From a virus: a DNA stretch of 64,000 nucleotides. Below, one piece after another: positions 2,355-52,320 of the stretch (position 1 is the first letter of the stretch; the number at the start of each line of letters is the position of its first letter). The notes beneath the pieces are model-generated. The model was given only the letters and a program-made list of their open reading frames with translations. It ran no database searches and was not told the DNA's origin. The translations under genes and the position numbers were made by a program. Where the stretch lies: positions 1 to 64,000 of IMG/VR virus record IMGVR_UViG_3300036715_000213. The stretch is one strand, 5' to 3'.

Positions 2355-2640
2355 TATCGTCTACCACAATGTACATAAGGACTTGACCATCTTCCATGTC
2401 TGCGCGGCAGCGTTCTTTACCTTCATCAATTGTGCGTGTCTGAAACAAGAACTTGTTCTTCTCCAGATTATAGAACAAATAAGCACCGTCAGTTACAACA
2501 ATTTCAATGTTAATACATTTGCTTTTCTGCTCACGTTGCTTTGTGTTGTATCCAGAGATAACGCCGCGCCAGTAAAAGAAGCCACAGATCGCCATCCAGA
2601 ACAAAAATGCTCCGAGATTGTCTAATTCAAGCCAGTTCAT
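2338..2640 (-). CDS. Small membrane protein between clamp-loader genes
   Basis: I place the start at 2640, where the ATG overlaps the gene 44 stop as ATGA; a longer reading from 2676 has no support. The resulting 100-residue protein begins MNWLELDNLGAFLFWMAI and has one predicted membrane span (about residues 8-28) followed by a basic stretch (KQREQKSK) and a soluble domain. The charge pattern suggests the C-terminal domain is cytoplasmic. I do not recognise the family. Its location, translationally coupled between the two clamp-loader subunits, is unusual and may mean co-expression with the replisome. Membrane tethering of replication is speculation. Confidence 0.72.
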   Translation of the reverse strand: MNWLELDNLGAFLFWMAICGFFYWRGVISGYNTKQREQKSKCINIEIVVTDGAYLFYNLEKNKFLFQTRTIDEGKERCRADMEDGQVLMYIVVDDNGEPI

Positions 2641-3581
2641 ACCCACTCCGCTTCTGCAGCAAATACTGCAAGGCAAGCTGTAATCAAGAGCTCAGTATCA
2701 GCAACTTGACTGCATTTATATAGATAGTCACCCAGAGTAACAACAATAGAGGGGAGACATCTTGGGGAAAGTAGTGGTGTAGTTTTTTCATATAAGCCTT
2801 TAAAAATATGTAAAGGTTCGATGTCTGAATTTGTTCCAACCCACTTACGCATGTCAGTAAAGTTTTTTGCCTTCAGAGCAACGACCAATTCGTTTAATTG
2901 AGCGTCAACCTGATTCACTAAAATACCAGAATCAATCTTGCCGCTTGAACTGTAACTTTGCAGCGCATTCAATGTGCTACGGAAGTCAGGATAGAACTTT
3001 TTAACCAACTCAGCGATGACTGGTTTGTCGTACTCAACACCTTCACTATCCAAGATGGTGAGAATACGTTTGAAGAAATGCGCTTGTAGTTTCGGCGCTT
3101 CTTCTTTGCTTACCTTAAAATCAATAACAAAACAACGGCTATGGATTGCGTCCATTACCTTGTTCTTAAAATTACAAGTAAAGATAAATCGTGTATTAGG
3201 AAATTGTTCAATAACGCCACGCAACGATTGTTGCTGGGCTGCTGATGCTCCGTCAAACTCATCAAGTAAGACAATCTTAATTCCATCGCCAAACGAAACA
3301 GATGATGCGAACTGAATTACATTCATCCGAACTGCGTCAATACCTTCAAGCGAAGCATTAATGTACATCAAGTCGGCGCCCAACTCATTAGCGATGACTC
3401 GTGCTAAAGTCGTCTTTCCTGTGCCTGCAGATCCAGTGAATAGGAAATGCGGGATGTTTCCGTTATCAATTAGATCCTGGATTGTTTTCTTTGTACCGTC
3501 TGGAAGAATTGCATCAGCCAGTTTGACTGGGCGATACTTCTCAGCCCACACGAGATTGTTCAATTTGTCGTTTTCAATCAT
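2637..3581 (-). CDS. 44: Clamp loader ATPase subunit gp44
   Basis: The 314-residue AAA+ protein carries Walker A GSAGTGKT (residues 50-57), Walker B with DEFD (107-110) and the SRC sensor motif (148-150). This is the arrangement of T4 gp44 (319 aa). The AAA+ module fills the first ~210 residues and the collar domain the rest. Four copies assemble with one gp62 to load gp45 clamps at primer ends using ATP. The ATG at 3581 has only a weak ribosome-binding site, and a 7-bp hairpin (3610-3627) lies upstream, so leader structure may matter. It directly follows the tmRNA gene. Confidence 0.97.
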   Translation of the reverse strand: MIENDKLNNLVWAEKYRPVKLADAILPDGTKKTIQDLIDNGNIPHFLFTGSAGTGKTTLARVIANELGADLMYINASLEGIDAVRMNVIQFASSVSFGDGIKIVLLDEFDGASAAQQQSLRGVIEQFPNTRFIFTCNFKNKVMDAIHSRCFVIDFKVSKEEAPKLQAHFFKRILTILDSEGVEYDKPVIAELVKKFYPDFRSTLNALQSYSSSGKIDSGILVNQVDAQLNELVVALKAKNFTDMRKWVGTNSDIEPLHIFKGLYEKTTPLLSPRCLPSIVVTLGDYLYKCSQVADTELLITACLAVFAAEAEWV

Positions 3582-3644: not shown

Positions 3645-3676
3645 AGAGGTTGATTTGGTTATATAGTCCAACCTCT
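3645..3676 (-). terminator. Terminal hairpin of the tmRNA transcript / intrinsic terminator candidate
   Basis: An 8-bp perfect stem (AGAGGTTG/CAACCTCT) with a 16-base loop follows the tag hairpin and is followed on the minus strand by the T-rich run TACTTTATTTTGTTT. It could be the 3' structure of the tmRNA coding piece, an intrinsic terminator, or both. The long loop lowers confidence in termination. Confidence 0.45.
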
Positions 3677-3885
3677 AAAACACTACACTCTCGGTTTAGG
3701 CAACCAGAGAGAATCTTTCGTCGTTTGCATTTACTGCGATTTAGGTTTTACGTCCACTTTGACGATCTCTATAATTGTTTCCCTGCGCTGTCGAAACTAT
3801 GGCTGGCCCATCAAAAACATTTGAGTTGCTTTTGGTGGACCAGGGCGGTACTGCCCCGCCTTCCAACACATATACGCAATTACAG
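3645..3885 (-). ncRNA. ssrA: Circularly permuted (two-piece) tmRNA, tag ANDERFSLVA
   Basis: On the minus strand the acceptor piece comes first (about 3885-3833): a helix strand, a T-arm (GGCGG, 7-nt loop, CCGCC), the strand CTGGTCC and an encoded ACCA (3836-3833). A 23-nt spacer follows. The coding piece then begins with GGGCCAG (3809-3803), which pairs with CTGGTCC as a 7-bp acceptor stem (one G-U), followed by TTTCGAC typical of the tmRNA D-arm analogue. CAATTATAG (3777-3769) pairs with CTGTAATTG (3885-3877) as helix P2. The tag frame (3728-3696) reads GCA AAC GAC GAA AGA TTC TCT CTG GTT GCC TAA, ANDERFSLVA-stop, and its stop lies in a P5-like hairpin loop. tmRNA rescues stalled ribosomes and tags the nascent chains. 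The 3' end is approximate. The T-loop (GGCAGTA) lacks the usual TTC. Confidence 0.9.
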
Positions 3886-3892
3886 TTGCTAA

Positions 3893-4345
3893 TTAAATAG
3901 CGGATTCTTTATTTAGTTTCTTTGAATGGAAATTCAATCCTGGATTGACTAACTTCTTTCCTTGACCTAATTTCCACCCATCGGGCTGTTCGTTTTCCAT
4001 AAAACAACCGCGCTTAGTCATATTGTCTGGATTATAGTACCAACGAGTTCCTTTAGTTCCTGCAGGATTTCTATTACCACCATTATCTAATTTCATTCCT
4101 TTGCGACTTTTTCTCGGTACTGTATGAGCTTTTTTACCAGCTTCATGTAACATTTGCTTGATGATTTCTTCACGGTTAATCATCTTAGCTAATCCCATCC
4201 ACGCTAACCTATCTTGCCAACGTCCATGCTGTTCAAACAAAACGCGATGTGCTTCTGCATGTTCTTCAATTGAAAGCTCTATCAAATTTTCTAGATTATC
4301 AGTTCCGCCGGCGTGTTTTGGTATGATGTGGTGTTTATGTTTCAT
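3893..4345 (-). CDS. HNH homing endonuclease
   Basis: This 150-residue protein starts with the compact HNH core of phage homing endonucleases: KHHIIPKHAGGTDNLENLIE, then LSIEEHAEAH. His5-His6, the Asn of NLENLIEL and the His of EEHAEAH are the likely metal and catalytic positions. The C-terminal half (GGNRNPAGTKGTRWYYNPDN) looks like a DNA-binding module of the NUMOD type. The gene sits as a free-standing element between a small unknown gene and the tmRNA, ending only about 8 bases before the tmRNA acceptor piece. It has its own late promoter inside a hairpin that covers its ribosome-binding site. The target site is unknown; the neighbouring RNA genes are candidates. Confidence 0.9.
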   Translation of the reverse strand: MKHKHHIIPKHAGGTDNLENLIELSIEEHAEAHRVLFEQHGRWQDRLAWMGLAKMINREEIIKQMLHEAGKKAHTVPRKSRKGMKLDNGGNRNPAGTKGTRWYYNPDNMTKRGCFMENEQPDGWKLGQGKKLVNPGLNFHSKKLNKESAI

Positions 4346-4346
4346 T

Positions 4347-4381
4347 GTATCGATCCTATGTTTTATTTATAGGATCGATAC
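4347..4381 (-). promoter_or_regulatory. Late promoter embedded in an RBS-sequestering hairpin (HNH gene)
   Basis: The minus strand has a perfect 13-bp inverted repeat (4381-4369 with 4359-4347) around a 9-nt loop. TATAAATA, the T4 late-promoter consensus, spans the 5' arm and loop (4371-4364). With late spacing, RNA would start near 4358, losing the 5' arm but keeping the AGGA ribosome-binding site in the 3' arm, 8 bases before the HNH ATG. Read-through RNA would fold and hide that site. The same logic is known for T4 I-TevI, e and soc. Confidence 0.75.
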
Positions 4382-4686: not shown

Positions 4687-4762
4687 TGGTGCGGCGTCTG
4701 GGAGTCGAACCCAATATCGGTGAATTATGAGTTCACTGCTTTTACCAATAAGCTACCGCCGC
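4687..4762 (-). tRNA. tRNA with CAU anticodon (tRNA-Met, or tRNA-Ile2 if lysidine-modified)
   Basis: A 76-nt cloverleaf with encoded CCA: acceptor arm GCGGCGG/CGCCGC (last pair G-A), D-arm GCTT/AAGC, anticodon arm GTGAA/TTCAC with loop CTCATAA (anticodon CAT), T-arm TTGGG/CCCAG with loop TTCGACT, and discriminator A. It has no variable-arm extension and no initiator-type anticodon stem (GGG/CCC absent), so it is an elongator Met or an Ile(CAU) tRNA. The sequence alone does not settle which. Its 5' end abuts a structured RNA candidate. Confidence 0.95.
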
Positions 4763-12436: not shown

Positions 12437-12856
12437 CTATTGTAATGTTTGATGTGTCTCAAATGTAAAGACATCAGTTGATGGTTCTTCTAAAGTTTGA
12501 TTCATAGCTGATGGAATCTCCAGCTTATTCACTAATTTGACATACATCCGATGAGCATCAGGATGCATTGGTGACAATACCATAATAGACGTAGTCGGTA
12601 TAAAGAAGAGACGAGTCTTAGAGAATGGCATCCAGGACTGACTATTTATCTCATTACGCATTCCATTTTCATCCATAATAGGAATAGTTCGAACTAGAAC
12701 TGGACTTTCAACAATGATTCCATGCTCACGTTCGTCAACAAGAGTCACCATCAATTCCTCACCTGTGGTAAGTTTCATCGTATAAAGCAGTTGATTTGCT
12801 TGAGGAACTGATTCTAAGTTTTCGGTCATGTTATTGTTAGTTTTCTGAGTGTCCAT
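12437..12856 (-). CDS. Conserved hypothetical protein, 139 aa (possible Sm-like fold)
   Basis: A 139-residue protein. Residues 25-60 (YTMKLTTGEELMVTLVDERE, then HGIIVESPVLVR) have the beta-strand rhythm of an Sm/LSm domain, and FFIPTTSIMVLSPMHPDA follows. Similar proteins occur beside uvsW in T4-like cyanophage relatives as unknowns; the Sm comparison is inference. The ATG at 12856, with AAGGA upstream, is preferred over an ATG at 12829 that overlaps the uvsW stop as ATGA but lacks a ribosome-binding site. The N-terminal 20 residues look disordered. No membrane segment. Confidence 0.7.
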   Translation of the reverse strand: MDTQKTNNNMTENLESVPQANQLLYTMKLTTGEELMVTLVDEREHGIIVESPVLVRTIPIMDENGMRNEINSQSWMPFSKTRLFFIPTTSIMVLSPMHPDAHRMYVKLVNKLEIPSAMNQTLEEPSTDVFTFETHQTLQ

Positions 12857-14172
12857 GAAAAACTTTCCTTCTCATAGATGCTGATACGATCTTCTAAGTG
12901 ATTTTGTGTTGTATTCTTGAACGACTTCCAGCTAAGGTCATCAGCGATGTCGTACAATACGCACTTCTCCTTTCCCTTGTTCAAACGTAGTCCACGGCCG
13001 ATAGATTGACGAATGCGAATTGTTGATTTGCTTGGAATAGCAAAAATTATATTCCTGATGCTCGGTATGTTGACACCAGTAGACATTAGCGCGCTATTAG
13101 CAACAACAATTGCATCCGTCTCCGTACTTAGTATGTTACGAATACGTTCGCGTTCTTCAACGTCCACGCCACCGTGGATAAAGTAAACTTTCCGGTCAGT
13201 AATTTCCCGTATCATTTTCTCAATAATAGCGCCGTGACGATCCACGAAGTTGAACAGCACTAGAGTGTTACCCTTAACAACTGATGCTAGTTTTGCAATG
13301 AAACGATTCCGTGGTTCGTATGCAACCAAGAAAGCAATCTCCTCTTGGTATGTCATTCCCTTATAGGCTTTCCGTATGTGCTCTGGGTACTGTAACACTG
13401 TACAATTAATGTCCAATTGTGACACCTGTCCGTTGTCCATTAGTTCCTTAGTGGAAATAACTTTGTAGATTGGACCCATTAGTCCTTGTAAAACAAGTGC
13501 GTTAATCTTTGCATCGTCAATCGTACCCGTTGTTCCAATACGATACTTGGTAAGGATAAAACGTTCCATAACACTCGAAGCAATACCTGATTTTTGTGTG
13601 TGACAATTTGAAACCATTACACCATTAGCAAAATAATTATGATTATCTTTCACATGTAAATTATATGTATCTTCGTCATTGTTTATCAATTGTATTTCAC
13701 TAATACCAGACCACTCTACAAAATCTTCATACCAATAGCCAAGCTCGCGACGCGTTTTACCTAACATAGTTTTTGGTATTTTATTTTTACTTGCGTTAAT
13801 AGATTGACAAGTTATAATTTTTTGTGAATTTTTGCACCATTGTGCTTCACGTCCAATTAGACTTGTAAAAACTCCCGAAGGAGTATGGTATAATCCCTTA
13901 CATTGTATCGGGTACCATTCTTGCGATCCCCAATATTGCTTATCTACAATGTTTATAGTTTTTGTTTCATTAGAGTATCTATATTTTACTGTTAATTTTT
14001 CTTTTCTGTTAGTAGTAAGATCACTTCGATTATAAAAATCTTCCTTGGATACTGTTTCAACTAAGCCGCTAGCGTTTCTAGCTCTAACTTTATTTTTTTG
14101 TGCTATACTCATATTCAATCTCATTTTAGATGAGTCATAATTTAACCATCTAATTCTATTGTTCTTTACCAT
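12826..14172 (-). CDS. uvsW: UvsW helicase C-terminal half with C-intein and insert domain
   Basis: A 448-residue ORF in two parts. Residues 1-189 are intein: an insert of ~140 residues including YHTPSGVFTSLIGREAQWCK (like DNA-binding repeats of homing endonucleases), then the C-intein NLHVKDNHNYFANGV ending VMVSN. Cys190 starts the extein CHTQKSG, followed by the second RecA-like helicase domain with TTGTIDD (motif III), STGVNIPS and IRQSIGRGLR (motif VI), as in T4 UvsW. The start is three bases after the stop of the N-terminal ORF and in the same frame; no convincing ribosome-binding site is seen. The residue before Asn189 is Ser, not the common His. Joined exteins give about 501 residues against 503 for T4 UvsW. 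Confidence 0.9.
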   Translation of the reverse strand: MVKNNRIRWLNYDSSKMRLNMSIAQKNKVRARNASGLVETVSKEDFYNRSDLTTNRKEKLTVKYRYSNETKTINIVDKQYWGSQEWYPIQCKGLYHTPSGVFTSLIGREAQWCKNSQKIITCQSINASKNKIPKTMLGKTRRELGYWYEDFVEWSGISEIQLINNDEDTYNLHVKDNHNYFANGVMVSNCHTQKSGIASSVMERFILTKYRIGTTGTIDDAKINALVLQGLMGPIYKVISTKELMDNGQVSQLDINCTVLQYPEHIRKAYKGMTYQEEIAFLVAYEPRNRFIAKLASVVKGNTLVLFNFVDRHGAIIEKMIREITDRKVYFIHGGVDVEERERIRNILSTETDAIVVANSALMSTGVNIPSIRNIIFAIPSKSTIRIRQSIGRGLRLNKGKEKCVLYDIADDLSWKSFKNTTQNHLEDRISIYEKESFSWTLRKLTIT

Positions 14173-14460
14173 GCTTTATGATATACGAATTTTTGAATTA
14201 ATAGTTAATTCGTCTACTCTTACCCATCCACTAGCAGTCATAATTTTATGATTTCCAGTTACTTCAAGAAATTTTCCATTTTTTAATTTGATTTTATATT
14301 TCTGTTCTGTAGAAATATTTTTGTGAAGTTTTATGACTGGTTTGTACTCAACATTTAATGTAGTTTCATTAATTGTTTTTACCATATCTCCGACATTTAT
14401 TTCTTTAATTTTCTTGAAAATATTATTTTCCAATTCAATTAAAGAATCACCAGCCAAACA
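13606..14460 (-). other. Intein inserted in the DECH motif of UvsW, interrupted by one in-frame stop
   Basis: The intein runs from Cys243 of the N-terminal ORF (CLAGDSLIELENN, block A) through TGNHKIM (block B, TxxH) to NYFANGV and SN in the C-terminal ORF (blocks F and G), followed by Cys+1. It interrupts WDE/CH, the Walker B (motif II) of the helicase, a common intein target. One TAA (14178-14176) followed by AGC and ATG, all in frame, divides it. The DNA is visibly more AT-rich than its flanks, as expected for a mobile insertion. Confidence 0.88.
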
Positions 14461-15186
14461 CTCATCCCAGATACCAACTTCAGTACGCTTTACGATTTCG
14501 TCGAACTTCTTTGGGTCGTTTTTCATCATAGATGCTAGCGATTGCCATGTGCTAATTACGACTGACTTTTCAAAGACACGTTCCTTGCCACTATACAGAG
14601 TGCTACAATGTTCTTCAGCATTCCATCCATTTTCACTGCTGTAATCTTCAAAGTCGCTAAACAATTGTTCCACTAGCATTGTAGTGGGTACAACAATCAT
14701 TAGCTTACGTCCATGCTCAATGTGCCAGCGAATGATACACATAATAATCATTGACTTACCGGAAGCTGTTGGGCTTAGCAATAGCTGGCGCTCATTGGAG
14801 ATTGCTTGCCAGACAGCTTCATATTGGTACTCGCGAATGTCTAACTTGTCACCGCGTCCATGTAGATCTAAACTGTCAACAAAATCCTTTGCCTTCTCAT
14901 AAGTTACTTCCAGAGCATTGGAGTTCTTTAAAGATTTGTCGATGAAAAGCTCGTAGTCACGGTTCTTGGCAAACTTGATTATCTCATGGATAAGACCTTT
15001 GTACAGTTGCTTGTTCCGCATGTTGAACAAACGAATCTTCCCGTCCCACATTTTGTTCTTGTAGGAAGGCATGAATCGATATCCCGGAGCCATGAACGTA
15101 AAATACTCGCTGATTTCTTGTTCAATGCCGTAGTCATCCGTCTCAATACGGATGTAGGTTTCGTTACATGGGATAACTTTTATCAT
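14176..15186 (-). CDS. uvsW: UvsW helicase N-terminal half with N-intein
   Basis: A 336-residue ORF. Residues 1-242 match the T4 UvsW N-terminus: FMAPGYRFMPSYKNKMWDGK (DNA-binding domain), LDIREYQYEAV (Q-like motif), Walker A PTASGKS (139-145), VVPTTMLVEQ (motif Ia), STWQSL and IWDE (motif II, cut). From Cys243 on, the N-intein CLAGDSLIEL ... TGNHKIMTASGWVRVDEL takes over and ends at TAA (residue 336). UvsW is a branch-migration/annealing helicase that unwinds R-loops and D-loops and shifts replication to recombination mode. Alone this half lacks motifs III-VI, so splicing with the downstream product is needed. It overlaps uvsY by ATGA. Confidence 0.92.
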   Translation of the reverse strand: MIKVIPCNETYIRIETDDYGIEQEISEYFTFMAPGYRFMPSYKNKMWDGKIRLFNMRNKQLYKGLIHEIIKFAKNRDYELFIDKSLKNSNALEVTYEKAKDFVDSLDLHGRGDKLDIREYQYEAVWQAISNERQLLLSPTASGKSMIIMCIIRWHIEHGRKLMIVVPTTMLVEQLFSDFEDYSSENGWNAEEHCSTLYSGKERVFEKSVVISTWQSLASMMKNDPKKFDEIVKRTEVGIWDECLAGDSLIELENNIFKKIKEINVGDMVKTINETTLNVEYKPVIKLHKNISTEQKYKIKLKNGKFLEVTGNHKIMTASGWVRVDELTINSKIRIS

Positions 15187-48477: not shown

Positions 48478-51400
48478 TTAGAGTGATTTGTTGGAGTAAA
48501 AGTCCACGGATTTAATATTATGGTGCAAGATGAAGTTTCTATTAACATCACCAGCTAAGAAGCATTTGTTACCGCATGTAATGTGGCGAACTAATCCCAT
48601 ACCAATAAACTTAACATCAATAATCTCTTCCCAACGCAAAACACCGTTTAATTCAGTAACAGTGTGCTTGCCTAGCATATCCGGAGCATTGACTAAAGTT
48701 CCATTAATAGTTGGGATGGGTGCAGTAGAAGAACATGTTAATTTGACACCTAAAGTGGATGTCAGGCAATACAGAGGTTGTTCTTTAGTTTCAGCGAATG
48801 TAACTTCGTCAAAAGAACGTTTCCATGTATTTGGATCAACTGTTGGTATGATCATACCAACATTGATATCTTTAGCTTGCATTCCATTTTCCAGCCATGC
48901 ATCAAGAACAACACAGCCACCTCCACCATAGCTAGGAATTATAACTTGAAGCGGTAATGATGGAGGTAAGTATGCCCATCCCCATGGTCCTAGAACTGGA
49001 GGTGGAGGTGGAGCAATAATTGGTGCCGGCGCTGGAATTGGCGCTGGCGCTGGTGGAGGTGGAACAACTACTGGTGGCGCTGGGATTGGAATAATCACAG
49101 GAACTGGTGGTGTTGCTGCCACTGGTGGAGGTGTTACCTTAATCTCAACCTTTGGTACTGGTGGGATAATTACAACCGCTGGAGTGATGATTGGTGGAGT
49201 AATAATCACTGGACGTGGTGGTTGGATAAACACAAACTCAGTGATAGTCTCAGTTGATGTCTTAACGATATCAGCTAAGTTTTCAACTTCAGTCCAAGTG
49301 TCATCCTTTGGTACAATTTCCAGCGCGCCTTGCCAGCTAAACACAGCAAACGGGTTAATGTTGGTAATACGACTCGATACGCCTTGTGAAGCAAGGATAA
49401 CGTTTTCATAGTTCAGTGTTGCGATATCATTGATAATGGATACGTTAGTACCAACCGATACTGGAGATAACATTGTTTCAATACGATCAAACAATGGTTT
49501 AATCTTACCAGAAACATACGATACCTTAAATCCTGGATCAGTTACATCCGAGATAGCATCAGCATCGCTAAAGTTATCGACTAAGTAACCGCTCTTGTAA
49601 CGTGATAGTCCAGTTGTTGTGTCAACAATGTCATAGTTAACTGCGCTCTGTTCTGCTTCGGATAGAGTGATGTAATCTTCGATGTTAGCCACACGCTTGT
49701 CTAGAGAAGCAACATCGCGCATAGTGTAAACACGGTTATCATTCTTCTTAACTGTACAATCAATTGCCTTGGCAGTATAAGGAGGAACTGTAATAGTTGC
49801 CAGCTTGATAGAATCTGCTGGCAGTGGCTTCTCTTTTGGTACGTCAGCTGGAGTACCTGTTATAATACTTAATGTACCATCCTTGCTGAAGATAACAGAG
49901 TCAATACGACCAACATAGTGGCGAACAGTTGCAGTAATACGGGAATCATTCTGAACTAGCTTGCTTACAGAAGCGCCAGTACCGGTAAATGTTCCATCAG
50001 TACCAACGCGCGGACGGAAGTCTAACACATTGCGTAGGTTGTATGTCTTACGGTCGTTTTTACTAGTGTAAGATAACAGTGGAGAATCATAGTAACCAGA
50101 CATTGTGGTGTACGAGTCAACGCTGAAGTAATCTCCAGAATTATGGCTAAAGTAATCGTATGTGACTGTCACATTGTATGCTGGAGTTTGTGCTCCAGCT
50201 TTCAAAGTAATTGATCCACGATCGTAAAAATAATCAGTTTGACCATTATCGTATGAGTAGCTAGCAGTTACATCAAGTTCGTTTGCTCCACCAGCGTCTT
50301 GCACAACCTTAGTAACACGAACCAAGTCAGCATGTGGCAACACAAGTGTCGCAGAACTTGGATTTATTGCAGCAGATACAACATTCTGGACTAGAGTTTT
50401 TGTCTTTGGAGCACGTGATGCACCAGTTACAGTAGCAGCACAAAATACGCTCAATGTGCTACTTGCTGGGCTAATGCCGCTAAAGGATACAGATAGCCCG
50501 TCTGGAGCGACTGTTGCTGTTGACAATGCTTGGATACCGCTGGAAGTAACCAGCAACATGTTGCCTTCTTCCTTTGGATTGATTGTCATACCAGTTACAG
50601 TCATTGTACCAGCACCACCAGTAATAGTCACAGTTTGTTCATGATAAACAGTGTAAGAAATATCACTAACTTCGCTGTCACCCTTGGCGCTGTATGTGTA
50701 ATCATATGGAAGTGGAACTAGCAGATTGTTAGTTACATTCTTAACGATAACTTCTTTGTCAATAACCTTAGCAGTTCCGCCGGATGTCATACCAAGAATG
50801 GTATCACCAATCAGTGGAGTTGATTCACCCACGCAACGAGTGTTAACGTACAAGACGCCTTCAGGGCGCAGGTACTTTATAACGTTACCGCAGCGAGCTT
50901 CTGATTCAACTTCTTCGTTTAGAGTAAACGCCAAGCTGTTAGTCGAAACCACAGTTAATTTATGCAATACAGTAGCAATCTCTGATGCACCATATGTGAT
51001 GATACCAATCTCATCTACTGAGTGTGTTGGTCCCACAGCAATGTCAGTAACAAACATCTTGTAGATTGCATTGGTTGTGGTTGTGTTGGATTCAACAAAA
51101 TCAACTGCCAACAATGTAGCTGAACCAATAACAGTTCCAGCCGTAATATCCTTCAGTGTAACTGGCGAATGCAGCTTAAAGCTAGGTAGATTAGACAGTC
51201 CAGTAACGTAAAACGCTTGTCCAAAGGATGGGACAATATTAATAACGTTCTCTTGGATGGATTCAACATCACGCGCTTTGTTAACAGTCAGCAACGTATC
51301 TGCTATCTTTTCGTTCTCGAATCCCTTGATGTATGCCTTACCAGCAGCAATAGTGTAAATCATCTTAGATGAATCACCGCCAGCTGTAGAAACATAACGA

Positions 51401-52320
51401 CCGTCGTTCAGTTCTGATTTCAAGTGTTCACGAGTTGTTACTTTCAAACCAGTTGTAACATAGTCACCGTTTGTGTCATAGTTACGACGAGCCAGACCCT
51501 TGTCCAACTCATTATATTTTGGATAGCGGCTATGCTCTTCAAGAACGCCTTCATTATAGCGCATCAACTCGATGTAATCGTCATTTACAGCTACACTTAA
51601 ATCCAGAGTAACTAGGTTCAATGTAATTTGTAGACGATCTGCGCCTGGAGCCGCATAATTATATGAGCCCTGAGCTGGATCCAGCAACGTTGCGTCGTCA
51701 TCCGATGTTACAACGCTTTCAACGATTTGTAGCAATACGCGAGTGCTTGGAGATGCGCTGTACTTGGAAATAACAACTGATTGCTTATTAACAGTCGCGA
51801 ACGTGCCGTTTACATAGTAAACACCTTGGTCGATATTAGCAACTGCGGCTGCACCACATGGTGTTCCGCTTGCTGTGGTAAATGTAGTCGAGATGCCTTC
51901 AACAGTCAACACTTCACTCGCCAGGAATACCTTTTCACCGTTTGTACCGGAATTGCTATAGGAAACATACAGAGTATCAGGATCAGTCAAAGTCTTAGCA
52001 ATGCCCTTACGGATGATACCGCGCAAACCGGAAGTCGCACCAACAACAAACTTGCCTTCAAGTGTAGCAATATCGTAGGATGTATCAACCAACTTCACAT
52101 AACATACATTGAAGTCGGAATTGATGTTACCCGGAATAACTACGGAGCCATGCTTAAACACGTGATTGCCAAACTTAGCAATCTGATTCTTCAGTATTGA
52201 TTGAATCTGTGTTAGTTCACGAGCCTGAATACTATTACCCGGCTTAAACAGGATTTGATAGAATTGTTTAGACTCATCAAAGTCGTCATAGTATGGATTC
52301 GAATTTAAATTGATTGTCAT
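48478..52320 (-). CDS. DUF4815-type tail protein with C-terminal polyproline linker and Hint domain, 1280 aa
   Basis: Residues 1-~950 are a DUF4815-type structural region (DDFDESKQFYQILFKPGNSI, QARELTQIQSILKNQIAKFG, FKHGSVVIPGNINSDF). Residues 1029-1128 are extremely proline-rich (PPVVVPPPPAPAPIPAPAPI). After GGGG, Cys1136 opens a Hint-type domain: CVVLDAWLENGMQAKDINVG, the block-B analogue TCSSTAPIPTINGTLVNAPD (no His in TxxH), and CFLAGDVNRNFILHHN ending with His-Asn (1267-1268) and a 12-residue tail. Hint domains cleave or ligate protein backbones, so C-terminal autoprocessing is possible; the missing block-B His may reduce it. It is probably a fibre-carrying baseplate protein. Confidence 0.85.
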   Translation of the reverse strand: MTINLNSNPYYDDFDESKQFYQILFKPGNSIQARELTQIQSILKNQIAKFGNHVFKHGSVVIPGNINSDFNVCYVKLVDTSYDIATLEGKFVVGATSGLRGIIRKGIAKTLTDPDTLYVSYSNSGTNGEKVFLASEVLTVEGISTTFTTASGTPCGAAAVANIDQGVYYVNGTFATVNKQSVVISKYSASPSTRVLLQIVESVVTSDDDATLLDPAQGSYNYAAPGADRLQITLNLVTLDLSVAVNDDYIELMRYNEGVLEEHSRYPKYNELDKGLARRNYDTNGDYVTTGLKVTTREHLKSELNDGRYVSTAGGDSSKMIYTIAAGKAYIKGFENEKIADTLLTVNKARDVESIQENVINIVPSFGQAFYVTGLSNLPSFKLHSPVTLKDITAGTVIGSATLLAVDFVESNTTTTNAIYKMFVTDIAVGPTHSVDEIGIITYGASEIATVLHKLTVVSTNSLAFTLNEEVESEARCGNVIKYLRPEGVLYVNTRCVGESTPLIGDTILGMTSGGTAKVIDKEVIVKNVTNNLLVPLPYDYTYSAKGDSEVSDISYTVYHEQTVTITGGAGTMTVTGMTINPKEEGNMLLVTSSGIQALSTATVAPDGLSVSFSGISPASSTLSVFCAATVTGASRAPKTKTLVQNVVSAAINPSSATLVLPHADLVRVTKVVQDAGGANELDVTASYSYDNGQTDYFYDRGSITLKAGAQTPAYNVTVTYDYFSHNSGDYFSVDSYTTMSGYYDSPLLSYTSKNDRKTYNLRNVLDFRPRVGTDGTFTGTGASVSKLVQNDSRITATVRHYVGRIDSVIFSKDGTLSIITGTPADVPKEKPLPADSIKLATITVPPYTAKAIDCTVKKNDNRVYTMRDVASLDKRVANIEDYITLSEAEQSAVNYDIVDTTTGLSRYKSGYLVDNFSDADAISDVTDPGFKVSYVSGKIKPLFDRIETMLSPVSVGTNVSIINDIATLNYENVILASQGVSSRITNINPFAVFSWQGALEIVPKDDTWTEVENLADIVKTSTETITEFVFIQPPRPVIITPPIITPAVVIIPPVPKVEIKVTPPPVAATPPVPVIIPIPAPPVVVPPPPAPAPIPAPAPIIAPPPPPVLGPWGWAYLPPSLPLQVIIPSYGGGGCVVLDAWLENGMQAKDINVGMIIPTVDPNTWKRSFDEVTFAETKEQPLYCLTSTLGVKLTCSSTAPIPTINGTLVNAPDMLGKHTVTELNGVLRWEEIIDVKFIGMGLVRHITCGNKCFLAGDVNRNFILHHNIKSVDFYSNKSL

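Follow-up and report, generated by a model that had tools for sequence, protein, structure and literature searches.

An intact permuted tmRNA gene in a T4-like phage and an adjoining HNH endonuclease gene from a clade that probably targets permuted tmRNA genes

Introduction

A survey of phage genomes found tmRNA in 402 of 18,146; its 133 distinct genes included 53 of the two-piece form (PMC9004378). The current tmRNA database lists 79 phage sequences (PMC11915505). The intervening segment (IVS) of permuted tmRNA genes has been reported to contain a tRNA gene or a repeat, and the same paper places homing endonucleases only in group I introns of tmRNA genes (PMC11915505). An earlier note on the DNA treated here called phage tmRNAs rare; in view of the survey count (PMC9004378) and of the many uncultivated viral contigs that carry such genes, this calls for qualification.

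Because permuted tmRNAs of phages are already known (PMC9004378; PMC11915505), the tmRNA described here is a new member rather than a new class. What may be new is its neighbour, an HNH gene; almost every member of the clade to which it belongs touches a permuted tmRNA gene. No earlier report of a homing endonuclease in permuted tmRNA genes was found in the openly accessible literature. The window, that is, the whole stretch of DNA that was analysed, comprises 64,000 nucleotides (positions 1 to 64,000 of IMG/VR record IMGVR_UViG_3300036715_000213). Gene structure, covariation, conservation of the locus, the phylogeny and contexts of the HNH gene, and its HNH-filled and HNH-free relatives were computed. 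In our judgment, the window very probably holds an intact permuted tmRNA gene whose transcript would be processed to a two-piece RNA for ribosome rescue, beside an HNH gene of a probably tmRNA-targeting clade.

Structure of the permuted tmRNA gene

Positions 3889-3645 on the minus strand of the window are an intact permuted (two-piece) tmRNA gene of a T4-like phage. In the Rfam search with Infernal, two families matched over the whole model and above cut-off: RF04321 tmRNA_permuted at 3893-3696 (96.7 bits, gathering score 47, E 1.6e-17) and RF01850 beta_tmRNA at 3929-3656 (92.2 bits, gathering score 84, E 1.4e-26). These matches bear out the phage-encoded permuted tmRNA that the earlier note had proposed, and the features it named all lie where it had placed them on the minus strand. 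It had not remarked on the GGCAGTA T-loop, on the homing-endonuclease nature of the abutting ORF or on the permuted tmRNA at the corresponding locus of sister phages. ARAGORN, which the note had also suggested as a check, did not report a permuted tmRNA; its only call in the window was a tRNA-Met at 4687-4762. The gene has the following parts.

3645-3889, minus strand: whole permuted tmRNA gene (Rfam matches, fold)
3833-3889, minus strand: acceptor piece with P2 5' strand, T-arm, acceptor 3' strand and encoded CCA (RF04321 and RF01850, two-strand fold)
3877-3885, minus strand: P2 5' strand CTGTAATTG, paired with 3777-3769 in the lowest-energy fold
3844-3860, minus strand: T-arm GGCGG-GGCAGTA-CCGCC with an alphaproteobacteria-type T-loop (loop class shared with the RF01849 consensus and other viral tmRNAs)
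3843-3833, minus strand: acceptor 3' end CTGGTCC-A-CCA, the CCA ending at 3833 (sequence)
3810-3832, minus strand: IVS, 23 nt, without an ORF (fold; position of the IVS in other permuted tmRNAs)
3803-3809, minus strand: acceptor 5' strand GGGCCAG, where the coding piece begins; G3.U70 (sequence)
3790-3796, minus strand: D-loop analogue TTTCGAC, preceded by AG, which suits a GGC T-loop (elbow covariation)
3769-3777, minus strand: P2 3' strand CAATTATAG (lowest-energy fold)
3696-3728, minus strand: tag frame ANDERFSLVA and stop codon TAA (sequence)
3645-3686, minus strand: 3' pseudoknot-like domain with a AGAGGTTG/CAACCTCT stem (from the fold) and a second helix GTAGT/ACTAT (read from the sequence)

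Co-folding of the two predicted pieces reproduced the textbook tRNA-like domain, with its T-arm and an acceptor stem of 7 bp; a further stem of 7 bp lies beneath this domain, and P2 formed with 9 bp. The two pairings pointed out in the earlier note are both present: GGGCCAG and CTGGTCC form seven of seven pairs, the third being G3.U70, and the 9-bp pairing is P2, with one G.U. The 23-nt spacer that it had seen between the CCA and the 5' acceptor strand occupies 3832-3810 and, in the folded precursor, forms a hairpin that extends the acceptor stem. The precursor fold has a z-score of -3.67, and none of 200 dinucleotide shuffles was equally low. The tag is encoded by GCA AAC GAC GAA AGA TTC TCT CTG GTT GCC TAA; a resume codon, a hydrophobic C-terminal end and a stop codon are all present, and the LVA end is degron-like.

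A G.U at the third pair of the acceptor stem (G3.U70) is an alanine identity signal. All 138 viral permuted tmRNAs that were parsed have it, the parser having demanded pairing but not G.U. Compensatory changes were found in related phages: among 52 phage tmRNAs whose location did not depend on pairing, 622 of the 624 cells of the T-stem and acceptor stem (99.7%) are paired, as against 76.8% (maximum 80.8%) when partners are re-dealt. A direct DNA search of phage records with the window tmRNA gave no match, and the viral searches yielded no close relative of this exact tmRNA.

The T-loop and the elbow

The T-loop of the window, GGCAGTA, is not of the usual TTC type and is without U54, U55 and A58. 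It fits the RF01849 alpha_tmRNA consensus, and the same loop class recurs in many viral tmRNAs; since GGCAGTA is a consensus in its own right, a TTC T-loop does not define the tmRNA family. Among viral permuted tmRNAs, a GG D-loop accompanies TTC loops by 59 to 0, and an AG D-loop accompanies TGC or GGC loops by 62 to 0, a covariation (p 5e-36, ignoring relatedness) counted only in genes whose D-loop is readable in a fixed frame. The elbow of the window belongs to the second of these classes and is therefore consistent, not broken. A reading of the odd T-loop as decay was dropped on the strength of the alpha_tmRNA consensus and the covariation with the D-loop.

The window combines a beta-like tag with this alpha-type elbow. 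A search of 300 genomes of the order Burkholderiales found a permuted tmRNA above 120 bits in 13, and the six that were parsed have short IVSs (30-40 nt) and mostly TTC loops. In light of this survey, a beta-type tag alone cannot name the host.

The locus and its sister phages

Two neighbours of the tmRNA gene help to place it among related phages.

2637-3581, minus strand: clamp loader gp44 homologue, downstream of the tmRNA (PHROG 168, E 1.7e-99)
4687-4762, minus strand: tRNA-Met(CAT), which the sister phages likewise have upstream of their tmRNA (ARAGORN)

The earlier note's placement of the gene inside the replication operon, directly ahead of clamp-loader gene 44, was confirmed; the operon is T4-like. 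Gene 44 was used to gather 56 related viral contigs, and the nearest two, L002 (a contig of 164,769 bp) and L003, have a gp44 79% identical to that of the window. Both have a permuted tmRNA at the corresponding locus, flanked by gene 44 and a small ORF, and a tRNA-Met further upstream; no HNH gene stands at their tmRNA locus, and their tmRNA differs widely from that of the window. Their tag, ANIAQNDEVFALVA, ends in LVA as in the window, and most other parsed viral tags end in LAA, the parser having looked for such endings. The ancestor that the window phage shares with the sister phages probably already had a permuted tmRNA at this locus in the replication operon.

The two sister phages are about 97% identical around the gene, with 63 of 63 positions identical in the acceptor pieces and 247 of 250 in the coding pieces (310 of 313 in both). 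Their IVSs (78 and 89 nt) give no sensible alignment, yet each is closed by a different end stem of 9-11 bp. Conservation breaks exactly at the predicted processing points, the CCA and the acceptor 5' strand. As indirect evidence, this pattern fits excision of the IVS and a two-piece product. A permuted tmRNA was not seen in many of the more distant T4-like relatives, many of which are fragments, and the tmRNA therefore seems dispensable in the group. One T4-like pair, L141/L142 (gp44 49% identical), has an apparent one-piece tmRNA with the tag ANDDAPIAQAA directly after tRNA genes.

The HNH gene adjoining the tmRNA

Immediately ahead of the tmRNA lie an HNH gene and its presumptive control elements.

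3893-4345, minus strand: HNH homing endonuclease ORF, 150 aa, ending at the tmRNA 5' end (PHROG 655, E 5.8e-12; Pfam HNH)
4347-4381, minus strand: 13-bp hairpin GTATCGATCCTAT..ATAGGATCGATAC (fold, -18.4 kcal/mol)
4364-4371, minus strand: T4-type late promoter box TATAAATA (exact match)

The protein matches PF01844 with 21.8 bits, just over the cut-off of 21.4, and has the catalytic His/Asn pattern HHIIPKH...N...EH..AH. Its stop codon falls a few nucleotides ahead of the acceptor piece; the gene is outside the tmRNA and now stands between it and the upstream gene. Within the hairpin at 4381-4347, the late-promoter box falls in the 5' arm and loop, and the 3' arm contains the Shine-Dalgarno sequence of the HNH gene (AGGA). 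Transcripts starting just past the box would be without this masking hairpin. Five exact copies of the box occur on the minus strand of the window and none on the plus strand, and a late sigma factor gene is encoded in the window. A tmRNA-like operator before the HNH gene (I-TevI has an operator) was not significant in the window, being so in some relatives only, and sigma-70-like promoters near the tmRNA gene were not above chance.

Of 135 viral permuted tmRNAs, 15 have the same box 73-79 nt ahead of their CCA end (L463, L480, L472, L567-L589 and others). Several of these have TTGACA about 17 nt upstream, which suggests a shared promoter type.

HNH relatives within and beside tmRNA genes

A search of 2.9 million viral contigs for homologues of the HNH protein returned 80 loci. 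The nearest homologues, L461 (61% over 146 residues) and L462 (55%), both sit inside the IVS of a permuted tmRNA. HNH genes are also found inside a tmRNA IVS in L472, L488, L504 and L511 and in copies of these in other contigs, and several such cases have Rfam matches of 653-696 nt that span the endonuclease gene. In these tmRNAs, the acceptor stem, T-arm and tag frame look intact. In a second set (L463, L465, L508, L515, L526, L535 and L536), the HNH gene is antisense and borders on a broken acceptor piece, terminating either within the T-loop or immediately behind the acceptor 5' strand. At the far side of the HNH gene, an entire tmRNA adjoins it in L463 and L515 and stands about 0.8 kb off in L508. 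The major head protein marks L462, L504 and L494 as T4-like. Among isolate phages, no close full-length copy of the window HNH protein was found.

Of the 19 rows associated with tmRNA in the protein tree, 18, among them the window, belong to a single 20-row group, and 18 of the 20 rows in this group touch tmRNA genes; 44 rows of the tree belong to no group. The window HNH joins L461 and L462 with support of 99/97, and the node uniting the two tmRNA-associated subclades is weak (80/54). Two rows of the IVS clade, L497 and L525, showed no adjacent tmRNA. Identical filled alleles recur in contigs from different metagenomes (five for L472, for example), and assembly error is therefore unlikely. 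Judging from these contexts and the tree, the clade of the window HNH probably consists of homing endonucleases that target permuted tmRNA genes.

Closely related filled and empty alleles could also be compared. L545 has an IVS of 492 nt with an HNH gene, and L543 has an HNH-free IVS of 85 nt; the two share an identical run of 58 nt up to the T-arm and another of 65 nt from the D-loop on. Against a further HNH-free copy, L546, the identical run from the D-loop reaches 142 nt. The block that differs between L545 and the HNH-free copies comprises the acceptor 3' strand, CCA, IVS and acceptor 5' strand, with acceptor strands CCGGTCC/GGGCCGG as opposed to CGCCTCC/GGGGGCG. Movement of the block as a unit would keep the acceptor stem paired. 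Such a pattern may reflect gene conversion started by the HNH enzyme.

The IVS as a possible niche for cargo

Among 28 distinct IVSs of at least 100 nt, a single sense-strand ORF takes up 80% or more of the length in 17; on the antisense strand, the same is true of one, and shuffles lead one to expect 2.2. The IVS-filling ORFs include four HNH genes, and others make up small families that recur in different tmRNAs (50% and 57% identity). Shine-Dalgarno sequences of IVS ORFs often lie in the left arm of the IVS stem and stop codons in its right arm. The phage permuted-tmRNA IVS may be an intron-like niche, in which the tmRNA-targeting HNH clade and several small-protein families settle because normal RNA end processing discards the IVS. 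They could move as a block with both acceptor strands, keeping the stem paired, and the HNH-tmRNA pair of the window would be one form of this mobile unit. We hold this broader picture to be reasonably likely.

The small ORFs that fill IVSs encode 24-65 aa (L252, L154, L136, L137, L102, L558, L584, L594, L182, L574 and L205), and some of their products have homologues in other tmRNAs, zinc-ribbon-like CxxC pairs or single membrane helices. In some phage IVSs (L002 and L066), tRNA T-arm-like pieces (GGTTCGA...ACCA) were seen.

Two further features were noticed elsewhere in the window. Adjoining ORFs at 12826-15186 on the minus strand are the two parts of a split UvsW-like helicase gene, and the break has intein-like ends (CLAGDSLIELENN..., ...GVMVSNCH), possibly those of an intein with a frame break or of a split intein. 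The 1280-aa phage protein encoded at 48478-52320 on the minus strand has a C-terminal part that ends in a Hint-like stretch (CVVLDAWLENGMQAKDINVG...).

Proposed function and rival explanations

The proposed working of the phage tmRNA follows what is generally known of trans-translation. Cuts by tRNA-processing enzymes at 3833, where the encoded CCA ends, and at 3809, where GGGCCAG begins, would take the 23-nt IVS out of the precursor and leave two pieces, which P2, the long stem and the acceptor stem would hold together. Host AlaRS would charge this two-piece tmRNA with alanine through G3.U70, and host SmpB and EF-Tu would deliver it to ribosomes that have stalled. The 76-kb record and 17 other phage records yielded no SmpB gene, and host SmpB would therefore be needed. 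By trans-translation during infection, the tmRNA would free ribosomes caught on cut or incomplete mRNAs and would append ANDERFSLVA as a degron. As infection is expected to yield many truncated messages, a phage copy of tmRNA may keep ribosomes usable and have broken proteins degraded. With respect to timing, we infer, as the earlier note did, that the phage uses its tmRNA during host takeover. The HNH protein, for its part, is predicted to cut DNA.

It is conceivable that the tmRNA no longer works and is a decaying passenger with a wrecked T-loop, its fold kept by chance or by recent arrival. The absence of U54, U55 and A58, the failure of ARAGORN to see the gene and the apparent dispensability of tmRNA in related phages are what such decay might leave. 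However, GGCAGTA is the Rfam consensus of alphaproteobacteria and recurs with a D-loop AG wherever that loop is readable in frame; moreover, all helices, G3.U70, the CCA, the tag frame and the stop codon are intact, and the sister phages keep a tmRNA at the locus. We consider decay very unlikely. Another alternative is a decoy or competitor that poisons host trans-translation, for which phage DS6A sets a precedent: its tag-less tmRNA-like form inhibits E. coli tmRNA, according to work cited in PMC11915505, and host SmpB would be shared. Unlike the DS6A RNA, the window gene retains its whole tag frame, including the degron-like LVA end and the stop codon, and the different tag of the sister phages keeps the same ending, which makes a decoy highly improbable.

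The HNH gene might, in turn, be an ordinary free-standing phage endonuclease that stands beside the tmRNA by chance. T4-like phages commonly carry HNH genes, many homologues lie away from tmRNA (the 44 ungrouped tree rows), and the window copy is outside the tmRNA gene, whereas other endonucleases of the clade are inside. The closest homologues among the 2.9 million viral contigs nevertheless sit inside permuted tmRNA IVSs, and the surrounding group consists almost entirely of rows that touch tmRNA genes. A chance neighbour is thus unlikely, although it deserves more weight than decay or a decoy. The reading that we favour, a working permuted tmRNA beside a probably tmRNA-targeting HNH gene, points to a homing-endonuclease clade specialised on permuted tmRNA genes and able to live in an RNA segment that is removed without splicing. 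If this is true, RNA processing of fragmented genes shelters mobile DNA as introns and inteins do, which may explain why spacers vary and mature pieces stay constant in phage tmRNAs, and the question of why phages carry tmRNA becomes testable. For the census of such genes, it matters that ARAGORN-based surveys miss some phage tmRNAs.

Comparison with known systems

Two-piece ssrA genes are likewise present in the T4-like myoviruses Melnitz, Pelagibacter phage Mosig and others, where host machinery is assumed (PMC9004378). The Melnitz gene is of the alpha type and has a glutamine riboswitch (PMC9004378); the window gene, in contrast, has a beta-like tag, an alpha-type elbow and an adjoining homing endonuclease, and no Rfam riboswitch was found in the window. 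With RF01850 beta_tmRNA and RF04321 tmRNA_permuted, the window shares the whole-model match, the ANDERF tag, G3.U70 and the encoded CCA (PMC11915505). It differs from both in its T-loop GGCAGTA and D-loop AG, which are as in RF01849 alpha_tmRNA, and in a tag that ends in LVA.

For the endonuclease, the nearest parallel is LAGLIDADG in the group I introns of tmRNA genes, where an endonuclease likewise lies inside a tmRNA gene and the RNA is spared (PMC11915505), as holds for the relatives of the window HNH. Unlike those introns, the phage HNH genes lie in an IVS that is not self-splicing and would be removed by end processing without ligation. The late promoter is placed as in T4 I-TevI, SegB and Aeh1 MobE, whose late transcripts are without the hairpin that masks the ribosome-binding site of read-through transcripts (PMC2988022). 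I-TevI and SegB, however, are GIY-YIG enzymes, and MobE is an HNH enzyme encoded between ribonucleotide reductase genes (PMC2988022), whereas the likely target of the window HNH is a tmRNA gene.
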